Shown: positions 3,016 to 32,298 of the stretch, in pieces
Position numbering within the stretch: position 1 is the stretch's first letter
Layout: each line of letters starts with the position of its first letter
IMG/VR virus record: IMGVR_UViG_3300050821_002430
Coordinates: 1 to 32,660 of that record
DNA from: a virus
Strand: one strand, 5' to 3'
DNA: 32,660 nucleotides
Translations under genes and position numbers: made by a program
The notes under the pieces: model-generated
Database searches by the model: none
Told to the model about the DNA's origin: nothing
Seen by the model: only the letters and a program-made list of their open reading frames with translations

Positions 3016-3497
3016 AGTACCATCCGAGTCGTATTACATCTTGAGCAGGTTTCAACATCATCAGAGAAACGGCTCCATTTATGAGGGCAACCGTCTCCGC
3101 AAACAGAACAGAATTTTACTCTACTGATCGGATCATTGTTACTGAGATACTCCCATTTATGCCCGTGAAGCTGGCACTTTTCTTGAGGAGTTAAATCCAA
3201 GACGTCGCCGCCGTTTGAATTCAAAAGCGGAAGTTGCGCATCGTCGCGCGGGTTCATATCGTTTGGCCTAGACGGTTCGCGACCGTCTTTGATTGCTTTT
3301 AAAAGCTCAACCTCACGACGTATATACCAAAGTGATTTCTCAAGATCTTCGATCTCTTTGGTGGGGTCTTTCTTGCCTGCGCGTGAAATATACTTGACGG
3401 CGTTACCACGAGCGAAGTTCAACTTCTGATCTTCGATGAACTCGATCACTTCGATCTTGCCGGAATTATAATGCTTCGGATGGTTGATGTCGCTCAT
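3012..3497 (-). CDS. DUF3310 protein with duplicated C-terminal Cys/His repeat
   Basis: Residues 1 to about 70 match the DUF3310 family, common in phage replication regions: it begins NHPKHYNSGKIEVIEFIED and continues with ARGNAVKYISRAGKK and a helix LEKSLWYIRREVEL. The family is sometimes labelled nucleotide-kinase-like but no activity is established. After a linker the C-terminus holds two copies of a short H-K-W...C-x2-C unit: GHKWEYLS with CSVC, and PHKWSRFS with CSRC. This suggests one or two small zinc sites added to the core. The ATG overlaps the previous stop (ATGA at 3497-3494). One copy of the GTATATAC palindrome lies inside, at 3320-3327. Confidence 0.85.
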   Translation of the reverse strand: MSDINHPKHYNSGKIEVIEFIEDQKLNFARGNAVKYISRAGKKDPTKEIEDLEKSLWYIRREVELLKAIKDGREPSRPNDMNPRDDAQLPLLNSNGGDVLDLTPQEKCQLHGHKWEYLSNNDPISRVKFCSVCGDGCPHKWSRFSDDVETCSRCNTTRMVL

Positions 3498-4849: not shown

Positions 4850-4872
4850 TTTCGGATTTCCTTTCGTGTTTT

Positions 4873-4884
4873 CGGTATATACCG
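4873..4884 (-). promoter_or_regulatory. GGTATATACC operator-like palindrome upstream of the SSB gene
   Basis: The perfect 12-bp palindrome CGGTATATACCG fills part of the only sizeable gap in this stretch of the leftward block, 24 nt upstream of the SSB start. On the minus strand it is followed directly by GAAAACACGA and the ribosome site. The TATATA inside could also serve as a -10 element, but no convincing -35 box was found. It is one of five intergenic copies. Confidence 0.6.
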
Positions 4885-4897
4885 ATTACTTACATCA

Positions 4898-5716
4898 TTA
4901 ATAAAAATCTTCAATCTCTTTTTGAATAGGGATTGAAAATACTGCTTTCGCTTTCTCTAACTTGCCTTCAGTCTTTAGAGGACAGATGGATTTCGCCGGA
5001 CACCAATGACAGTGACTTCCTTCAACATATTTTTTAGGAAATCGCTTTACTCGATCAACTGCCTTTTGGAACTGATAAACCCATGCTTGCAGCTCACCAA
5101 TTGAAATGTCCCAATAGAGAGGGCCCTCGTAGCCCTTGATTCTCGGTTGAACGATCCAAAGCCTCACACGCTTAAAGTTCCAATCAAACCGATGAGCAAG
5201 TCCGATCCCGTAGAAAATCATTTGAAGATTCTCCTTTGGTGAAACCGCAACTCCCGCACCATATTTATAATCGAAAACGTGAAGCGTTCCGAAGTGATCG
5301 ACTACCGCACCATCAAAAGTCCCAAACATTTCGGGATCAATGAAGTCGAGGTATATACGAGTTTCGACCATGATTTCAGAATGAGGCGTCTGTCGGTGAA
5401 GCCCTATAATGAAATCACGAGCCGCTATCCCGTGTCTCAACATCTCTGTCGGATAAGACGTTACTGTCGGCAGTCTTCGGATTTCCGCGATCATGAGTTG
5501 CTCTAATACCTCGTGGGCTTCCGTTCCCTCTTTCGCCCAAACGGAACTCTTGCTCGGAATGCCTTCCGAGAGATTCACCGAGCCCGGACAGCTAAACCAG
5601 CGTTCCGCTCCCGATGCCGAGTACTTCGAATGCGCCCGCTCACCGTGAGCCTTCGGTCCTGCGACCTTGACCGGCTTCACGGCAGTGCGAACGTATTGAG
5701 CGAAGTCGTTACTCAT
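4898..5716 (-). CDS. DUF2800 protein, PD-(D/E)XK (RecB/Cas4-like) nuclease
   Basis: This 272-residue protein has the DUF2800 layout. HSKYSASGAERWFSCPGS opens the domain, and WAKEGTEAHEVLE (about residues 60-72) is the helical motif with the conserved Glu/His. The nuclease core reads GTFDGAVVDHFG then HVFDYKYG, giving the two acidic residues and the Lys of PD-(D/E)XK, with the glutamine-bearing QM helix following. The cysteines CHWCPAKSICP near the C-terminus may bind an Fe-S cluster or zinc as in AddB/Cas4. It probably processes DNA ends in phage recombination and replication next to the SSB. The ATG at 5716 is chosen by homology; it overlaps the preceding gene by 8 nt. It contains a GTATATAC site at 5351-5358. 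Confidence 0.85.
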   Translation of the reverse strand: MSNDFAQYVRTAVKPVKVAGPKAHGERAHSKYSASGAERWFSCPGSVNLSEGIPSKSSVWAKEGTEAHEVLEQLMIAEIRRLPTVTSYPTEMLRHGIAARDFIIGLHRQTPHSEIMVETRIYLDFIDPEMFGTFDGAVVDHFGTLHVFDYKYGAGVAVSPKENLQMIFYGIGLAHRFDWNFKRVRLWIVQPRIKGYEGPLYWDISIGELQAWVYQFQKAVDRVKRFPKKYVEGSHCHWCPAKSICPLKTEGKLEKAKAVFSIPIQKEIEDFY

Positions 5717-5897: not shown

Positions 5898-6160
5898 GCG
5901 TCTCGGGCTTCCTGAGTGGGCTTCGTTTGCGGTGCCGCAAATTGAGGCCAAGACCAATGACCAGGCTTTAGCGTTTCCGAAAACGGTGTAGGATTAAAGT
6001 ATATACCGTTAGGATTAAAGACGGTGAGCTGGCATTCCTGAGTCTCTTCGTTCAAGACTTTCGTCACGATCGCAGGACTAGGCTCCGGTAAATGCTCTCC
6101 GCCGGGCGTTCCATATTTGGTATAGACGACGATCCGGCCAATGCTTGCTTTCGGTAGCAT
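5894..6160 (-). CDS. Unknown protein, 88 aa
   Basis: I do not recognise this protein. It starts MLPKASIGRIVVYTKYG and looks like a small beta-rich (SH3-like) domain: short strands separated by Gly/Pro turns, ending in GHWSWPQFAAP. No membrane segment is present. It is in the leftward block, with its ATG sharing one base with the preceding stop (TGATG) and its stop overlapping the next gene by ATGA. A GTATATAC copy (5999-6006) encodes Ile-Tyr here. Confidence 0.7.
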   Translation of the reverse strand: MLPKASIGRIVVYTKYGTPGGEHLPEPSPAIVTKVLNEETQECQLTVFNPNGIYFNPTPFSETLKPGHWSWPQFAAPQTKPTQEARDA

Positions 6161-7247: not shown

Positions 7248-7813
7248 TCGCTACCTCTTATAATTTCTCTGATCTGTAAGATCGAAATCGGCGCGTATCC
7301 CCACTGATCGACACCGACGTTGATCATCTTGTCTTTCACTTTCCAAGTCGTATGAACGTGCCCGTGAAGAAGCCAACCGCCGTAGTCGACGGGCCTAAAA
7401 GATTTGTATCTCTCTTCAGTGTCGTGATGATCGCCCGTGTAAGGCAGATGGTGAAGCGTAACGACTTCAAAAGGAGAATCAGTCATTATGATCTGGTCTT
7501 CGACATAGATGGATTGGAAGCCCGAATCCAGATAAAGCTTCAACTTATCATGCCAGTTTTTATGAACCGGATGGCAACGATCGTGATTGCCTGGAATTAA
7601 ATTGTGACGGCCGTTCATGTCTTTGAGCCTAGCAAGCTCTCTCGGGTGCATACTGAAATCTCCCAAGTGATAGACCTCATCAGTCGGTTCGACCAATAAG
7701 TTGTGACGCCTAACAAGTTGATCGTTCATGTCTTCAACCGATTCGAATGGGCGGTTGCAGTACTTGATGATGTTCGCGTGCCCGAAGTGTTGATCAGATG
7801 TAAACCAAATCAT
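7244..7813 (-). CDS. Calcineurin-like metallophosphoesterase
   Basis: All five signature blocks of the two-metal phosphoesterase fold are present in order in this 189-residue protein: [13 protein letters not shown] (D-x-H), YHLGDFS (G-D), IPGNHD (G-N-H-D), a later His region VTLHHLPY and LHGHVHTTW (G-H-x-H). The length matches the compact MPE subfamily common in phages. The substrate is unknown; relatives act on phosphodiesters, 2',3'-cyclic phosphates or DNA ends. It is coupled by ATGA at both ends to its neighbours. Confidence 0.9.
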
Positions 7814-8247
7814 AGTGACCTCCGATAAGCGACGGCGTCCTTCTTAGAAATAAATCTTTTTGACGTTTGACGGTAGTTAATCTGAATAGTCGCTCGCCAC
7901 ATTTTTCTGGATTTGTCGAAAGAAACGCCCTTAACACCGGATCTATTTGTTTTCGGAATCTTCATGCTACGACGGTTTCGCGCCTGCTCCTCATAAGTCG
8001 CCCATCGACAATTTGATTTTGAGTACCCTTTATTATTGTCTTTTCTTTCAAGTGACGTCCCGAACGGCCTCAACCCCATGTCTTCTAAAAAATCTATAAA
8101 GCAATTCCATCGTTTACAGATCTTAATTCCTCGACCCCCATACCGATCGTAACCAGTCGCCGATGGATTCAAACACCTCGATCGCATTGCTCGCCAAGAA
8201 TTATAAGTCGAGCACGATTGCCTTTTAGATCGATAACCGTGTTTCAT
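7810..8247 (-). CDS. HNH-type homing-endonuclease-like protein with AP2 DNA-binding domain
   Basis: The start at 8247 gives an ATGA overlap with the helicase stop and excludes an in-frame extension that would run back inside the helicase gene. The 145-residue protein has the catalytic-type core [46 protein letters not shown] and [12 protein letters not shown]-terminal AP2-like domain follows: [20 protein letters not shown] then [10 protein letters not shown]. The core is better preserved than in the paralogue at 1863-2270. Such genes are usually free-standing mobile endonucleases; here it lies between the helicase and the phosphoesterase without disrupting either. Confidence 0.85.
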
Positions 8248-9827
8248 CCTATGATCCGTTTCACGCGCTTGTGTTTGGTGAAGTTCGACCGCAAAACCAC
8301 TTCGTCGATTGAATTGGGGCAACAAATATATTCGCAACGTACAAAAGCCTTCTCGCTCCCGCGTCTGCTCGCTCTCTTCTCGCATTGCTTATTCTGCTCG
8401 TCAGTCCATGAGAACTCGCCAAAGATCACACGGTCGGCGTTTTGGAGGTTATGTCCTCTTTCCATTGCGGTAATATTTCCAATGATGAGTTTGCGCTTGC
8501 CTGATTGGAACTCAGCGAAGTAGCGCTCTCGTTCACGAGCGTGTGTCCCACCAATAACAAGGCCGGGGTTGAAGTCGACGAGATCAAGAGTCAACTGCTC
8601 GGCAACTTCTCGATGCCAGACAAAGAGTAAGATCGATTCGTTCTTTTGGTTCAAGCGCTCCCAGACATACCGGCCGATAAAAGGAACTTTGAGAAGGCCC
8701 AACTGTTTTCTGAGACGAGAGAACTCGCCTTGATCTCCGGCTTCGTTGCCGGGACTCTCGACCTTGAAGTCGCTTCCGATATTTTTCGCTTCCCATGACT
8801 TCATCTCGGCCGTTCTCACGTCCTGATTCATGAAGAGGATCGATCGTCTGCGTTCGGGATGCTCAAGCTTATCTTCCGTCACGACATGCATGAAGGACTT
8901 TGTAATTTTCTGATGCAACTCTTCTTCATGACTGGAATGTAAAAACGTATACTGACCGCGCTCAGTGATCTGCGGCCCGCAGTAGCGGTATCCGAAATCG
9001 TCCATACTCATGCAGTCAATCGCCTGCGGATCAAGAGCAAAGGTCGGTGCCCAAAGTTCGATCGGGCGGTTAAGTACCGGGCTTCCATCTAATAACACGA
9101 CGTGGGCCGCGTCTTGAAATAATCCGCTATAAGCGGTGTCTTTTGATCTGCCGCCGTAGAAGGCAAGTGACCTTTCCGCAAAGGGATCTTTGAAACGGCT
9201 CGCCTCATCGATTGCAATCATCTTCTTTCGCATGTGCGATAGTCTGGTATATACCCAAGGCTTCGTTAACATCGAGTCAGGCACGAGAATATAATCAGCC
9301 CCCCATCCCATGTGATCTTGTAGAGCCGAACCCGGAATCAGGCCGATACTGGGCCAAATACCGAAACGCTCACATACTGAATAGATCTCGCGTGCCCAAT
9401 TGACCGTGAGACTGGGCGGAACGATAATGACCGTCTGGCCTCGGGCCTCCGTCAGAATGCTCGTTACGATCAATTCCATTGTCTTACCGGCTCCGGGCGC
9501 GTGAGCCAAGTAACTGCGCTTGCGAGTGAGCGCCCATTGCACGCCCGACCATTGGTGGGGATCTAAAAAATTAAGGTGGCCTCCTTCATAGGCAAGCCGC
9601 GCCCGGCGAGGGAGGTCATAGAATTCTTGGAATGCTCTAGTGAAAATTTTCAAGGCTCCCGAATCACTATGACGTCTGAACGCGGACGCGGCTTGCAGTG
9701 AGGTCGTCGTGTAGACGTCGTCACTTCCTTTTTCCCAGTACGCGGACTGGTTTAAAACTTTGCGGTGAGAGGCTTGGGCTTCGGATAATATGAAGCGGCC
9801 TTTTTTAAATGAAAGAGTCGGTCCCAT
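8244..9827 (-). CDS. SNF2-type DNA helicase/ATPase
   Basis: The 527-residue product carries the superfamily 2 motifs: APGAGKTME (Walker A, about residues 110-118), TVIIVPPSL (Ia), IDEASRFK (II, DEAS, about 206-213), LLDGSPVLN (III), ESILLFVWH (IV), [17 protein letters not shown] (V) and [10 protein letters not shown] (VI, about 481-490). The compact phage form without accessory domains occurs widely beside DUF2800, DUF2815 and PolA genes, which fits here. It is the first gene of the leftward block. The ATG at 9827 is chosen because the 29 extra codons up to a TTG at 9914 would cross the regulatory gap and a GTATATAC palindrome; TAGG six nt before the ATG is a modest ribosome site. Confidence 0.92.
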
Positions 9828-9987
9828 GCAATACCTATCTCGTGTTTCCCGTATATACCGTGTTGACGCGTTTCGCTTAGCAACCTGTAATTTATTTTCT
9901 TTTGCGTATTGCAATGATTAGTCTCCTCGCTTACGTTTGTCAAACCGAAATCGAAAAATTATTTTCATTCGTTGTGGGGAGAATATC
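9828..9987. promoter_or_regulatory. Divergent regulatory gap between leftward and rightward blocks
   Basis: This 160-bp gap separates the helicase from the HTH gene. From left to right it holds the helicase leader, one GTATATAC palindrome (9851-9858), a rightward sigma70-like promoter (9863-9891) and an AT-rich stretch leading to the HTH ribosome site GGGGAG. Its position is that of a phage transcription switch. Confidence 0.65.
9863..9891 (+). promoter_or_regulatory. Sigma70-like promoter for the HTH/VapE operon
   Basis: TTGACG at 9863-9868 (five of six to consensus), a 17-bp spacer, then TGTAAT at 9886-9891 (five of six). The palindrome GTATATACC ends at 9859, exactly 3 nt before the -35 box. 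Transcription would begin near 9898, about 90 nt before the HTH start. Confidence 0.7.
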
Positions 9988-10215
9988 TTGAAGCCGAAAA
10001 AGAGCCGCGCCTTCGTTGACTGGGTCAACCGAGAGGGTATTGAATCTATTACTCAACTTCTAAAAGTCAGCCCGAGAACTGTGAATTATTGGTTGTCTGG
10101 TTTTTGCCATCCGAGGGTGGGCCAGATAAAACAGATTAGAAAAATTTCCGGCTTGACATATGTCGAGATCATCGACCGGGTCTACCTCACCAGAAAGAGG
10201 GGAAGTCAACAATGA
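9988..10215 (+). CDS. Small HTH (Cro/CI-like) DNA-binding protein, candidate regulator
   Basis: The start TTG at 9988 is chosen because GGGGAG lies 6 nt upstream; an upstream TTG at 9939 region lacks a ribosome site and would add a poor N-terminus. The 75-residue protein has a helix-turn-helix at about residues 20-40: SITQLLKVSPRTVNYWLSG, with the typical small-hydrophobic-Pro-x-x-V-x-x-W pattern, followed by HPRVGQIKQIRKISG as the next helices. This is the arrangement of Cro/CI or YdaS-like regulators. As the first gene of the rightward block, directly behind a promoter flanked by GTATATACC, it is the best local candidate to bind that palindrome. Its stop overlaps the replication gene (ATGA). 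Confidence 0.75.
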   Translation: MKPKKSRAFVDWVNREGIESITQLLKVSPRTVNYWLSGFCHPRVGQIKQIRKISGLTYVEIIDRVYLTRKRGSQQ

Positions 10216-13596: not shown

Positions 13597-13653
13597 GGTA
13601 TATACCGGAAATCTTGTAGGCTATCGGTATATACCAATTGGCGGGTATATACC
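13597..13653. promoter_or_regulatory. Triple GGTATATACC operator cluster
   Basis: Three exact copies of the 10-bp palindrome GGTATATACC lie at 13597-13606, 13626-13635 and 13644-13653, with centre spacings of 29 and 18 bp. They fill the gap directly upstream of the lipoprotein promoter, and the last copy ends 3 nt before its -35 box. This is the densest cluster of the motif and looks like a multi-site operator or activator region. Confidence 0.75.
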
Positions 13654-13656
13654 GGC

Positions 13657-13685
13657 TTGCAATTCATATCGAAGTGCGTTATTCT
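13657..13685 (+). promoter_or_regulatory. Sigma70-like promoter of the lipoprotein gene
   Basis: TTGCAA at 13657-13662, a 17-bp spacer, then TATTCT at 13680-13685. The expected start is near 13692, giving a leader of about 29 nt that contains GAAAACACGAGGA. The -35 box lies exactly 3 nt after a GGTATATACC site, the same geometry as at 9863. Confidence 0.65.
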
Positions 13686-13720
13686 ATAAGTGTAAAGACC
13701 GAAAACACGAGGATCACGAT

Positions 13721-14362
13721 ATGAATATCTTAAACGCTTTAAACACTCTCGCTTTAGTCATCTGCGTAAGCGGTTGCGGCCAGGCTCCAAGTGCGACAGA
13801 ATCAGCGGACATCGCTTCGGCAAATCCAAATCAAGCGATTCCTATCTCTCAACCGGTCTCTGATCCTACATCAAGCCCGACTCCAAGTGCATCCCCTAGT
13901 CCGACATCAAGCCCAATCGCTGTGACGGTATATACTAAGAGTACGACCGTCGCTCCGGTCAACGGCTTCCCTGGCGATTTCGTGACCTTGACTGGAAGTT
14001 GCGTAGTGTATTCAGGTAACACTTATTGCTGGGATAACGGCGTGCAATCCATCACAACAACCGTGAGTCACCTCACCACGACCAGTTATTATTTTTTCTG
14101 GACGATCGGACAGATGTCAGTAAACGGCTCACTCAACATTTGTTGGGGAGCTTGCCCTTACGACATCATGAGCGTTCCAACTTTGATCGACACCACACTT
14201 ACTAATAATATTCAAAGCTCTTTCGCTGTCGACCACGAAGCGCAAAGTACACCGTCTGCGGTGATATCGAGCGGGACTCAAACACATGTGAGCTGCACTG
14301 AGAATAACGGCTTGCTCGATTGCGGTACTTTCACGATCGATACAACCCAAGGAGGTTTATAA
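13721..14362 (+). CDS. Phage-encoded lipoprotein (candidate moron)
   Basis: The 213-residue product opens with a short signal peptide and a lipobox, LVICVSGCG, with the acylated Cys at residue 19. A Pro/Ser/Thr-rich spacer (about residues 45-65, PTSSPTPSASPSPTSSP) follows, then a beta-rich domain with several Cys (SCVVYSGNTYCWDN, CWGACPYD, VSCTENNGLLDCG) that could form disulphides in the periplasm or on the outer membrane. I recognise no family. It has its own promoter and three operator-like palindromes, and another GTATATAC lies within the gene at 13928. Surface lipoproteins expressed by phages and prophages often block superinfection; that role is inferred only from this general precedent and from the isolated regulation. 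RBS: GAGGAT before ATG. Confidence 0.75.
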   Translation: MNILNALNTLALVICVSGCGQAPSATESADIASANPNQAIPISQPVSDPTSSPTPSASPSPTSSPIAVTVYTKSTTVAPVNGFPGDFVTLTGSCVVYSGNTYCWDNGVQSITTTVSHLTTTSYYFFWTIGQMSVNGSLNICWGACPYDIMSVPTLIDTTLTNNIQSSFAVDHEAQSTPSAVISSGTQTHVSCTENNGLLDCGTFTIDTTQGGL

Positions 14363-14914: not shown

Positions 14915-14991
14915 CGAAAGAAGAAATGAGATTCTTGTGGATAGCTCTAGCAATCATCACCGCATGGAATATCGGATACCAACTTTTATGA
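14911..14991 (+). CDS. Membrane micropeptide, 26 aa
   Basis: The GTG at 14911 overlaps the preceding stop (GTGA) and has a strong ribosome site (GGAAGGAG, 7-8 nt upstream). The peptide MTKEEMRFLWIALAIITAWN then IGYQLL is one hydrophobic helix after a charged N-terminus. Its TGA overlaps the next ATG. Both overlaps make it likely to be translated; the role is unknown. Confidence 0.55.
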   Translation: MTKEEMRFLWIALAIITAWNIGYQLL

Positions 14992-15284
14992 AGAACTACA
15001 TCACCCGTGAAGAAATCATCTTGACCTCGCCTGAGTTTGGTTCTAGTACATACCTGGCGGATATGAAGAAAAAAGCGAAAGCCGAAAAGTCGGTAAAGAA
15101 ATCGAAGCCTAAAAAAGAAAAGCTCCAAGTGATCAATCTCAAAATCACTTCGGCCGATCGCAAGGCAATCCTCGCAATGGCCAAACGCTACGCGAAAGGC
15201 AATCTGTCTGCATGGTTACGTGCGGCCGGACTTGAGTATATACCGTCAAAGAAACACCCGGTCCCGCTCAAGATTAAAAAATAG
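14988..15284 (+). CDS. Ribbon-helix-helix-like DNA-binding protein, 98 aa
   Basis: The ATG at 14988 overlaps the micropeptide stop (ATGA). After a Lys-rich linker (about residues 25-45), residues 47-82 show a strand-helix-helix pattern: LQVINLKITSADRKAI, LAMAKRYAKG, NLSAWLRAAGLEYIPS. This fits ribbon-helix-helix proteins such as MobC- or Arc-like regulators. It lies just upstream of the late genes and could regulate them, or be a second candidate reader of the GTATATAC palindrome. A copy of that site overlaps its 3' end (15236-15243). Confidence 0.6.
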   Translation: MKNYITREEIILTSPEFGSSTYLADMKKKAKAEKSVKKSKPKKEKLQVINLKITSADRKAILAMAKRYAKGNLSAWLRAAGLEYIPSKKHPVPLKIKK

Positions 15285-15292
15285 AATTGATT

Positions 15293-15332
15293 TTGCAACG
15301 CAGTCGTGCAAGCTTCGTTCTCTATGAAGCTT
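15293..15332 (+). promoter_or_regulatory. Two overlapping hairpins at the ParB-like start codon
   Basis: TTGCA (15293-15297) pairs with TGCAA (15307-15311). AAGCTTC (15310-15316) pairs with GAAGCTT (15326-15332). The two stems share bases 15310-15311, so they are partly exclusive. The start codon (15324-15326) is at the edge of the second stem and no ribosome site is visible. This could control translation of the first late gene. Confidence 0.4.
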
Positions 15333-16022
15333 AAAAATTTGGCCCACAACCAAAAGAATCCTCGAACGGTCACCGACGCAAAACTGGCTCAGCTTAAGAA
15401 GGCCCTCTTAAAATTCGGCGACCTTTCGGGGATCGTCTTTAATCGGAAGTCGGGCAAACTCGTTGGTGGCCATCAACGCAGCAAGATCCTCGACGGTGAT
15501 CAAGAGATCACGATCACTAAAAAATATGTTAAACCAACGAAGTCGGGTACTGTTACCGAAGGGTATATACTGCTCAAGGGCGAACGCTTCCGCTATCGTG
15601 AAGTGGAATGGGACGACACGACTGAGAAGGCCGCAGCGATTGCCGCGAATAAGAACGCGGGCGAGTGGGACATCCCTCAACTCAATGCAACGCTTCAAGA
15701 ACTGAGTCACTTCGATTTAGATTTCGACGTCGGCCTCACGATGTTCGATTCCAAAGAGCTTGCTGATCTTCCGGCACCGATCGAAGTCGCCGCTCACACT
15801 CGCAAACAGAAAGAACCGAAAGAGCCTAAGCCCCCCAAATGTAAAGCGGGCGAAAGTTATCGGATGGGGTCTTCCACTCTTCGGTGTGGACCAGACGACC
15901 TTGAGTTCTGCGATCAAGTTCTTGACGGCTGGGAAAAGTATTCCGGTGAGCCCGCTGAGCTGTTACCATTGCCTCTTATGAGAAAGCCAGTTAAACAAGC
16001 TGAGAAACAGGCTCGTGTCTAA
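15324..16022 (+). CDS. ParB-like N-terminal domain protein; methyltransferase part missing
   Basis: Residues 1 to about 110 form a ParB/sulfiredoxin-like domain as found in phage ParB-methylase fusions: NQKNPRTVTDAKLAQLKKAL, FGDLSGIVFN and LVGGHQRSKIL. The later segment AANKNAGEWDIPQLNATL is also typical. The usual lead-in to a DNA methylase (SYRMGSSTLRCGPDD) is present but jumps straight to what looks like that domain's C-terminus (FCDQVLDGWEKYSGEPAEL); the DPPY catalytic core is absent. The protein may still cleave or bind DNA near the terminase. The ATG at 15324 is preferred over a GTG at 15306; neither has a ribosome site. Confidence 0.75.
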   Translation: MKLKNLAHNQKNPRTVTDAKLAQLKKALLKFGDLSGIVFNRKSGKLVGGHQRSKILDGDQEITITKKYVKPTKSGTVTEGYILLKGERFRYREVEWDDTTEKAAAIAANKNAGEWDIPQLNATLQELSHFDLDFDVGLTMFDSKELADLPAPIEVAAHTRKQKEPKEPKPPKCKAGESYRMGSSTLRCGPDDLEFCDQVLDGWEKYSGEPAELLPLPLMRKPVKQAEKQARV

Positions 16023-27612: not shown

Positions 27613-29082
27613 ATGAGCTTATCAGTTTCAGGAATTGTCAGAGTCACAGTCAATCTCAGTCCTCTTGCGGCAGCGGTCCGTTCATTCGGAATCTTGATGA
27701 TCGCAGGCGATTCGAACGTCATTAACGGGACCGAAAGATTTCGGACCTATTTGAACATCGACGGAGTCGCAGCCGATTTCGGTACGAGCGCACCGGAGTA
27801 TTTCGCAGCCGCCCTTTACTTCGGCCAGACTCCTCAACCGAGCACGCTGATGATCGGACGTTGGATCAGAACAGCAACCGCAGGTTTTCTCGAATGCGGA
27901 ATCTTGACTCCGACTCAGCAAGCGATTGGTAACTTCAACACCATCAACAATGGTGGGATCGACTTTACCATCGACGGCGTGGCGAGAAATTTGACGGGTC
28001 TCGATTTCACAAGTCAAACGAATCTGAACGGTGTCGCGACAGTGATCGCAACGGCGCTCTCGACTCACGGGACTTGTACTTGGAATGGATCGAATTTCGT
28101 CGTGACGAGTTCGACAACCGGCGCGAGTTCAGCGGTTGCTTTTGCTACGGCCGGAGCGGGAACCGATATCTCGACATTGATCAAAGCAACGGCTGCGACA
28201 GCTCAAGCAACCATTCCAGGTTACATTGCTGAAACGCCAGTAGCCTGCGCAGCGGTTCTAGCAAACATGTCGACTGCCTGGTATGGACTAATGTTTCAGG
28301 CTTCTGTTCAACCGACGGATCAACAAAATCTCGATGTCTCGACTTTCATCGAAGCTCTCGACATCACCCGTATATACGGGGTCACGATCACGAACACCAA
28401 CGTGTTGTCGGATCAAGTGACGAACGATCTCGCAAGCATGATGATGGACGCGGGCTATAATCAGTCATTCTGTCAGTACAGTCAGAACGCCTACGCGATT
28501 GCGTCTTTTTTCGGAAGAGCGTTCAGCGTCGATTTCTCAGCTCAGAACTCGACGATTACTCTCATGTTCAAACAAGAACCGGGAGTCTCGGGCGAGGATC
28601 TGACTCAGAATCAAGCGGCGACGTTGCAGGCAAAGCGCTGTAACGTCTTCGTTGACTACGTCAACGACACCGTCATCATTCAGTATGGTGTGATGAGCGG
28701 GTCGGCGTACTTTGACGAAATTCACGGGCTCGATTGGTTCCAAAATGCGATTCAGACCGCGTGCTATAACGTTCTCTACACGAGTACGACCAAAGTTCCG
28801 CAGACAGATGCAGGCGTGAATCAGCTCACCAATGCGATCTCGGGCGTCTGTGATCAAGCCGTCAATAACGGATTGGTTGCACCGGGAACTTGGAATGCAG
28901 CCGGTTTCGGTAGCCTTGCTCAAGGTCAGTACTTGAAGGCGGGTTATTATATTTACGCTCAACCGATCGCGCTTCAATCGCAATCGGATCGCGAAGCTCG
29001 CAAGGCTCCTCCGATCCAAGTTGCGGTCAAATTGGCCGGAGCAATTCAAAGTGTGGACGTCATCGTCGACGTGAACCGTTAA
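27613..29082 (+). CDS. Contractile tail sheath protein (DUF3383)
   Basis: The 489-residue product is a DUF3383 protein: SGIVRVTVNLSPLAAAVRSF and GILMIAGDSNVI at the N-terminus, TLMIGRWIRTATAG, TFIEALDITRIYGVTITNT, then GRAFSVDFSAQNSTITLMFK, LTQNQAATLQAKRCNVFVDY, and a C-terminal domain with GQYLKAGYYIYAQPIALQSQ. This family forms the sheath of many small myoviruses. It defines the phage as contractile-tailed. It contains the GTATATAC site at 28370. Confidence 0.93.
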   Translation: MSLSVSGIVRVTVNLSPLAAAVRSFGILMIAGDSNVINGTERFRTYLNIDGVAADFGTSAPEYFAAALYFGQTPQPSTLMIGRWIRTATAGFLECGILTPTQQAIGNFNTINNGGIDFTIDGVARNLTGLDFTSQTNLNGVATVIATALSTHGTCTWNGSNFVVTSSTTGASSAVAFATAGAGTDISTLIKATAATAQATIPGYIAETPVACAAVLANMSTAWYGLMFQASVQPTDQQNLDVSTFIEALDITRIYGVTITNTNVLSDQVTNDLASMMMDAGYNQSFCQYSQNAYAIASFFGRAFSVDFSAQNSTITLMFKQEPGVSGEDLTQNQAATLQAKRCNVFVDYVNDTVIIQYGVMSGSAYFDEIHGLDWFQNAIQTACYNVLYTSTTKVPQTDAGVNQLTNAISGVCDQAVNNGLVAPGTWNAAGFGSLAQGQYLKAGYYIYAQPIALQSQSDREARKAPPIQVAVKLAGAIQSVDVIVDVNR

Positions 29083-31424: not shown

Positions 31425-31936
31425 GCTTTCTCTCGGAACCGATCACGATTCAATCTCTCTTCGGCAAGAACCGCATGATCGGCCCGATCACGGTTCAAGT
31501 CGTGACGACGGAGAACACCAATGACACGCTCACCGTTACCCGTCAGCCGGTTCAGCAAGGCGCTTCAATTGCGGATCACGCCTACAAAGAGCCGACGGCT
31601 TTTTCGACGGCGATTTTATTCAAAGATAATCTCACTACGTCTCTTTCGAAGATCTATCAAAATTTACTTGATCTTCAGAATAGCCGGGTCCCCTTCGATA
31701 TCATTACTCCTAAGCGTATATACCACAACATGTTGATGACGGTTCTTGCGCAGACGACAGATAAAACGACAGAGAACTGCCTTTCGATCAATGCTTCTTT
31801 CCAAGAGGTCATCATCGTGAAAGTCACGACGGTTCAAGTGAACAGATCGAACTTAAAAAATCCCGGCTCTAACGGCGCAACTCAAAATGCAGGCCGAAAG
31901 CAATCGGCCCTCTCAACTCTCTTTGGTGGCCAATGA
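31421..31936 (+). CDS. Dit-like distal tail/baseplate protein
   Basis: The 171-residue product begins FLSEPITIQSLFGKNRMIG, then IGPITVQVVTTENTNDTLTV and SIADHAYKEPTAFSTAI, the pattern of Dit-like N-terminal domains found after short tape measures. It has CLSINASFQEVIIVKV near the C-terminus and a Gly/Ser tail. It probably forms the ring where the tail meets the baseplate. It contains a GTATATAC site at 31716. Confidence 0.82.
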   Translation: MSFLSEPITIQSLFGKNRMIGPITVQVVTTENTNDTLTVTRQPVQQGASIADHAYKEPTAFSTAILFKDNLTTSLSKIYQNLLDLQNSRVPFDIITPKRIYHNMLMTVLAQTTDKTTENCLSINASFQEVIIVKVTTVQVNRSNLKNPGSNGATQNAGRKQSALSTLFGGQ

Positions 31937-32298
31937 TTAATTATCTTGCCGATGCCGCCGCAGTTTCAGGAGTGAGCGTATATACCATTCCTCTTCAAAA
32001 CGTCCCGCAGTCATTCATTATTTCACTGGCCGGAAGTGACTATACGCTCACCGTGAGATGGAACGATGCCGACGAGGCAGGATGGTTACTCGACATCGCA
32101 GACTCGAACGCCAATCCTCTTGCTGTCGGTATCCCTCTCATCGTCGGCGCAGATCTTCTCGACGGACTTGAATATCTAGGGATCGAAGGTCAGTTCTTTT
32201 GTTACACCAATGGTGCGCAATTCGCGGTGCCGACTCTCGATAACTTAGGCACTGAATCGAACCTCTACTTTACGACGAGCAAACCGAATGGCAGTTGA
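31933..32298 (+). CDS. Baseplate plug protein (Pam3 gp18-like)
   Basis: The 121-residue product matches the small baseplate plug family: IPLQNVPQSFIISLAGSDYT then LTVRWNDADEAGWLLDIADS, GIPLIVGADLLDGLEYLGIE and FFCYTNG. In Pam3-like myoviruses this protein plugs the tube tip. It overlaps both neighbours (ATGA at its start; 11 nt with the hub gene). A GTATATAC site (31978-31985) encodes Val-Tyr-Thr here. Confidence 0.82.
   Translation: MINYLADAAAVSGVSVYTIPLQNVPQSFIISLAGSDYTLTVRWNDADEAGWLLDIADSNANPLAVGIPLIVGADLLDGLEYLGIEGQFFCYTNGAQFAVPTLDNLGTESNLYFTTSKPNGS

Follow-up and report, generated by a model that had tools for sequence, protein, structure and literature searches.

The perfect 8-bp palindrome GTATATAC is very probably the operator of a phage-encoded regulator. 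It occurs 15 times in the window, by which we mean the whole stretch of 32,660 bases that was analysed, a tailed-phage contig that makes up an entire virus record, against 0.04 copies expected from dinucleotide shuffles, and no other palindrome of the window is as strongly over-represented. Judged from sequence comparison, a small ribbon-helix-helix (RHH) protein encoded in the late operon is probably its reader, and we lean slightly towards a scheme in which this protein is an autoregulating repressor that blocks the -35 region, with additional sites resembling stoperators.

The leftward genes of the window include those for DNA polymerase, ssDNA-binding protein (SSB), exonuclease, phosphoesterase and helicase. 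Rightward run the genes for an HTH protein, a primase-helicase and a Holliday-junction resolvase, followed by a long late operon in which a lipoprotein-like gene precedes the genes for the RHH protein, the ParB-like protein, terminase, portal, head proteins, tail sheath and tape measure, in this order. Three genes recur in what follows:

13721 to 14362, + strand: lipoprotein-like gene, first of the late operon
14988 to 15284, + strand: RHH protein gene, the best candidate for the operator reader; start uncertain, perhaps 15063
9988 to 10215, + strand: Cro/CII-like HTH protein gene, rival candidate reader; TTG start

Some further features of the window deserve mention. The ParB-like protein (15324-16022, + strand) has 232 amino acids, and its counterparts in L010 and L013 are ParB-methyltransferase fusions of 458-465 amino acids, relative to which the methyltransferase part of the window protein seems to have been lost. 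Two related genes at 1863-2285 and 7810-8385 (both - strand, the second overlapping the 3' end of the helicase gene) share the motif YNSWRAM...RC.NP...Y..YGG.GI and look like members of a mobile endonuclease-type family. The word CACCAA/TTGGTG occurs 45 times in the whole window against 10.5 expected, and similar words are enriched in most relatives; it is perhaps a host recombination or packaging signal.

Five of the GTATATAC copies are intergenic (no strand is assigned to the operators):

4875 to 4882: operator placed 25 bp upstream of the gene for the ssDNA-binding protein (- strand)
9851 to 9858: operator in the divergent region between helicase (- strand) and HTH/primase (+ strand)
13598 to 13605: operator 1 of the late-promoter cluster; a syntenic triple cluster is present in G002
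13627 to 13634: operator 2 of the late-promoter cluster
13645 to 13652: third operator of the late-promoter cluster, separated by 4 bp from the -35 box; layout shared by L338/L339, L343 and G002

The other ten lie in coding sequence:

3320 to 3327: operator within a gene
5351 to 5358: operator within the exonuclease gene
5999 to 6006: operator within a gene
9247 to 9254: operator within the helicase gene; GTCTATAC near the matching place in G002
13928 to 13935: operator within the lipoprotein-like gene
15236 to 15243: operator towards the 3' end within the RHH gene; the RHH genes of G001 and G002 likewise contain a site
15563 to 15570: operator within the ParB-like gene
28370 to 28377: operator within the tail sheath gene
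31716 to 31723: operator within a late gene
31978 to 31985: operator within a late gene

Under synonymous shuffling, which keeps the proteins and the codon usage, 0.4 coding copies are expected instead of ten. A protein motif as their origin was rejected in view of this excess and of the occurrence of the copies in several different reading frames. Positions inside genes are common to relatives in only 2 of 31 mapped pairs. Since the reading frames vary and the places are mostly unshared, selection appears to act on the DNA. In three phages the RHH gene itself contains a site of the operator class, at 15236 in the window, 14099 in L342 and 8901 in L348.

The layout that the original prediction had described for two promoters, GTATATACC followed by three bases, a TTG-type -35 box, 17 bp and a -10 box, is identical at both and exact at 9851 and 13645. 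Written from the 8-bp palindrome, the first reads GTATATAC, cgtg, TTGACG, 17 bp, TGTAAT, and the second GTATATAC, cggc, TTGCAA, 17 bp, TATTCT, with the following boxes:

9863 to 9868, + strand: putative -35 TTGACG of the HTH-primase operon, from the sequence; not conserved in relatives
9886 to 9891, + strand: putative -10 TGTAAT of the HTH-primase operon, from the sequence
13657 to 13662, + strand: -35 TTGCAA of the late promoter, from the sequence and relatives
13680 to 13685, + strand: late-promoter -10 TATTCT; the window, L338 and L343 have TTATTCTAT in common

With promoters defined as TTG-N17-(-10) with at least four of six matches per box, thresholds that were chosen post hoc, promoter starts occupy 6.6e-4 of intergenic positions. 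When promoters were sought next to all 15 sites, in both orientations and at gaps of 0-12, a gap of 4 was found at 9851 and 13645 only, plus a gap of 10 once, at 5351. The motif by itself does not imply the promoter geometry, which the other 13 of the 15 sites lack. Given 13645, about 0.003 second independent intergenic sites with the same gap are expected, as calculated by hand from the rate of 6.6e-4, and it is unlikely that the gap is shared by chance. A generic promoter scan reported neither of the two promoters at its cut-off; thus, both rest on their geometry, to which conservation in relatives is added for 13645 only. The 9851 promoter is not conserved: G002 and G014 have a site in that region without an adjacent TTG box, and G001 has a TTG box with no clear -10. 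The view that the two promoters drive unrelated genes is misleading, as the one at 13645 heads the whole late operon, from the lipoprotein-like protein to the tail, and the one at 9851 lies between two early operons, its site being located 23 bp upstream of the leftward helicase gene. The leaders of the SSB gene and of the first late gene also share CGAAAACACGA (4864-4874, - strand; 13700-13710, + strand), a motif whose matches across the whole window are no more numerous than expected by chance.

Relatives of the window were retrieved by terminase, RHH and primase, and in these phages intergenic sites recur between the replication and the late genes. Site 13645 belongs to the triple cluster that heads the late operon, and clusters are kept at this place in related phages of 36-58% GC. 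G002 (58% GC) has three sites directly after the resolvase gene, matching the window, and G018 has four just before it; pairs occur at the late promoter of L338/L339, L013 and L324, and single sites at that of L343, L344 and L014. The divergent helicase/HTH region also carries a site in G001 (L342, 9649) and G002 (L333, 4148) and, in the form GTCTTTAC, in G014 (L354, 3805). GTATATAC is missing altogether from the sister phages G013 and G014, which carry GTCTTTAC at the late promoter instead, in three and two copies, respectively; genome-wide, GTCTTTAC is found 14 times in G013 and 12 times in G014, against about 1.3 expected. G002 additionally has 10 copies of GTCTATAC.

The late promoters of the relatives, which were called by eye and consensus and are ambiguous in L324, L344, G001 and G018, fall into two arrangements. 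In L338 the site is followed by 3 bp, TTGATT, 17 bp and TATTCT, in L343 by 3 bp, TTGCTT, 17 bp and TATTCT, and in G002 by 2 bp, TTCCAA, 17 bp and TATCCT. The operator begins at or within 1 bp of the -35 end and partly fills the spacer in G013 (TTGAAG), L335 (TTGCGG, with the variant operator GTGTATAC), L013 (TTGACG) and, with less clarity, L324. A regulator acting at the -35 region on a fixed face had been suggested from the two promoters of the window. Its first part is supported, in that a site for a sequence-specific regulator is kept at orthologous late promoters, touching or nearly touching the -35 box. The fixed face holds only in part, with gaps of 4, 3, 3 and 2 bp in four lineages and an operator at or just after the -35 end in three or four others.

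Several other repeats and searches can be set apart from this system. GGTCTTAC occurs 15 times in genes of G020 (L360 and L361) against 1.3 in synonymous shuffles, and is perhaps another dispersed motif. L072 contains 15 copies of a TGATATCA unit in 11.8 kb, many at regular short spacing, and was rejected as an instance of the same system because it is an array of regularly spaced units. L392 was rejected as a further GTCTTTAC phage because all its sites are in genes. A scan of viral and genome collections for close site pairs gave broad and diverse matches that are mostly chance-like, and a scan for a site followed by TTG-N20-TATTCTAT at gaps of 0-30 yielded, outside the family, AT-rich contigs in which neither RHH nor terminase has a relative.

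The RHH gene is the sole gene of the window for which each of the 14 RHH/operator records compared has a homologue. Some of these records were retrieved through the RHH gene itself, and the set fetched by terminase gives a cleaner test. Among 80 loci found by terminase only, intergenic GTATATAC is present in 5 of the 10 with RHH and in none of the 70 without it (p = 1e-5, a value inflated by relatedness). Co-occurrence discriminates mainly through distant phages, because close relatives share many genes. In the more distant L330, L325, L326 and L405, of which the last has the primase in common with the window, the region at the head of the RHH operon contains a site that fits GT[AC]T[AT]TAC, a motif class picked after inspection of the data. 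L330 has no match to any window gene other than RHH in its whole record, and here GTATATAC stands 9 bp before the RHH start codon, within 60 bp in which 0.003 copies are expected. L392 has the RHH gene and no operator at the promoter. In the window and its relatives, operators head the operon that contains the RHH gene, so that the protein would find a short operator at its own promoter.

The candidate protein is about 73-98 amino acids long. Its AlphaFold monomer model (pLDDT 88) has RHH topology, with residues 12-19 extended and helices at 21-35 and 39-49. The top three Foldseek matches of this model are RHH chains, all of them weak; the best solved structures are ArtA-DNA and NikR, both RHH proteins, at a Foldseek E value of at least 1.0 and Z scores of 5.5 and 4.1. 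A NikA-like Pfam domain is recognized in 11 of 21 family members (best 8.7e-6). A sequence search of the PDB with the RHH profile gave one chance match only, and no detectable sequence relation to solved RHH chains. A search of 398 genomes of the phylum of one alphaproteobacterial MAG gave a single weak match to the RHH family, and hence no clue to the host. The strand positions that are expected to face DNA can be assigned by analogy with Arc. A corresponding analogy is offered by AmrZ (PMC3325190). At the positions of V14, N16 and K18, the residues are L, N and K in all three GTCTTTAC phages (G013, G014 and L325; n = 3) and never in GTATATAC phages, which is suggestive of strand residues L, N and K tracking the GTCTTTAC operator.

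In the scheme that we slightly favour, the RHH protein produced from the late operon would bind GTATATAC. On the operators that abut the late -35 box, the bound protein would keep sigma off and thereby repress its own operon, and at the sites 23-25 bp upstream of the genes for helicase and SSB it would lower early leftward expression as late proteins accumulate. The coding copies may serve as roadblocks or titration sites. Repression appears likely to be the mode of action, rather than activation; most RHH regulators are repressors (PMC3325190).

Activation of the late promoter by the RHH protein or another regulator, which from about -42 would contact sigma or alpha and offset weak -35 boxes, is somewhat unlikely. 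It would fit the site centres at about -41.5 to -43.5 and the weak boxes TTGCAA, TTGATT, TTGCTT and TTCCAA of the window, L338, L343 and G002, and the RHH proteins AmrZ and H. pylori NikR both activate and repress (PMC3325190). However, the layout of class II activator promoters, in which the activator site adjoins or overlaps the -35 box at one constant position, is seen in the four lineages with gaps of 2-4 and not in L013, L335, G013 and L324, where the operator lies in the spacer (less clearly so in L324) and ordinary activation is unlikely. Blocking of the -35 region covers both geometries, whereas class II activation covers only the form with the operator upstream. A different view is that the dispersed copies represent the main function, as a signal that serves the whole genome as stoperator or in packaging, partition or condensation, and that the promoter copies are incidental. 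Coding copies indeed exceed synonymous shuffles in G001, G002, G013 and G014 as in the window, a situation reminiscent of mycobacteriophage L5, in which more than 20 repressor sites are dispersed (PMC9283540). This view is nevertheless unlikely: G018 and G020 have no coding copies, yet a promoter cluster or pair is kept, and promoter positions are conserved whereas those in genes mostly are not.

As to the identity of the reader, the Cro/CII-like HTH protein encoded beside the 9851 site is a quite improbable candidate. Its gene adjoins a site in the window, G001, G002 and G014, a position typical of phage regulators that control their own expression. On the other hand, its recognition helix (ERSTVRKWR[DE]G) hardly differs between G014, which has GTCTTTAC, and L338, which has GTATATAC, while the RHH strands do differ; L340 and L341 share primase, helicase and HTH with the window and lack both RHH and operator; and L330 has operator and RHH with no HTH detected. 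It is highly doubtful that the palindrome is a site for a host regulator or a methyltransferase, with no phage DNA-binding regulator involved. The ParB-methyltransferase fusion of some relatives would be in agreement with such a role, but the spelling of the operator differs between sister phages at a place that is kept, and no relative of the ParB-like protein was found in the operator-bearing G018, L324 and G013, nor in G016, for which reason the ParB-like protein was also rejected as reader.

Reading by the RHH protein invites comparison with known systems, although a literature search found no phage operator GTATATAC. SvtR of the archaeal virus SIRV1 is likewise a small viral RHH protein; it acts as a repressor of its own gene, and its strongest binding is at a late structural gene. 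It differs in belonging to an archaeal virus, in a longer and imperfect inverted-repeat site and in having four sites in total, with no dispersed intragenic sites reported there (PMC5569661). AmrZ, ArtA, NikR and other RHH regulators read short half-sites by a beta-ribbon, with autoregulation and mostly repression (PMC3325190). The cluster A mycobacteriophages (L5, TipsytheTRex) also have many near-identical short sites, at promoters and scattered genome-wide, but their stoperators are 13-bp, asymmetric and oriented with transcription, serve immunity, and are read by a monomer with two DNA-binding domains, an HTH and a second one (PMC9283540). The window shares with them the many dispersed copies and not the asymmetric, oriented 13-bp site, having instead an 8-bp palindrome, many sites in genes and the small RHH candidate. 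Because a palindrome cannot carry orientation, which is a defining feature there, we do not file the present system as a stoperator system. The operator of the YefM antitoxin consists of short palindromes that form pairs at 12 bp over a promoter, like the pairs in L338 and G014, but belongs to a toxin-antitoxin locus and a protein of another fold, and no partner toxin is seen here (PMC4803016).

Tentatively, then, this uncultured phage family may exert its early-to-late switch by an RHH protein acting on 8-bp operators that are spread genome-wide, also inside genes, and whose spelling (GTATATAC, GTCTTTAC) diverged together with the protein between sister phages; this would be a palindromic RHH counterpart of the stoperator systems. 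If true, phages that are known only from metagenomes would gain a candidate regulator together with a binding site and a regulon, and a natural series of operator/protein pairs would become available for studying how RHH proteins change specificity. It would also raise the question of what selects for regulator sites within phage genes.
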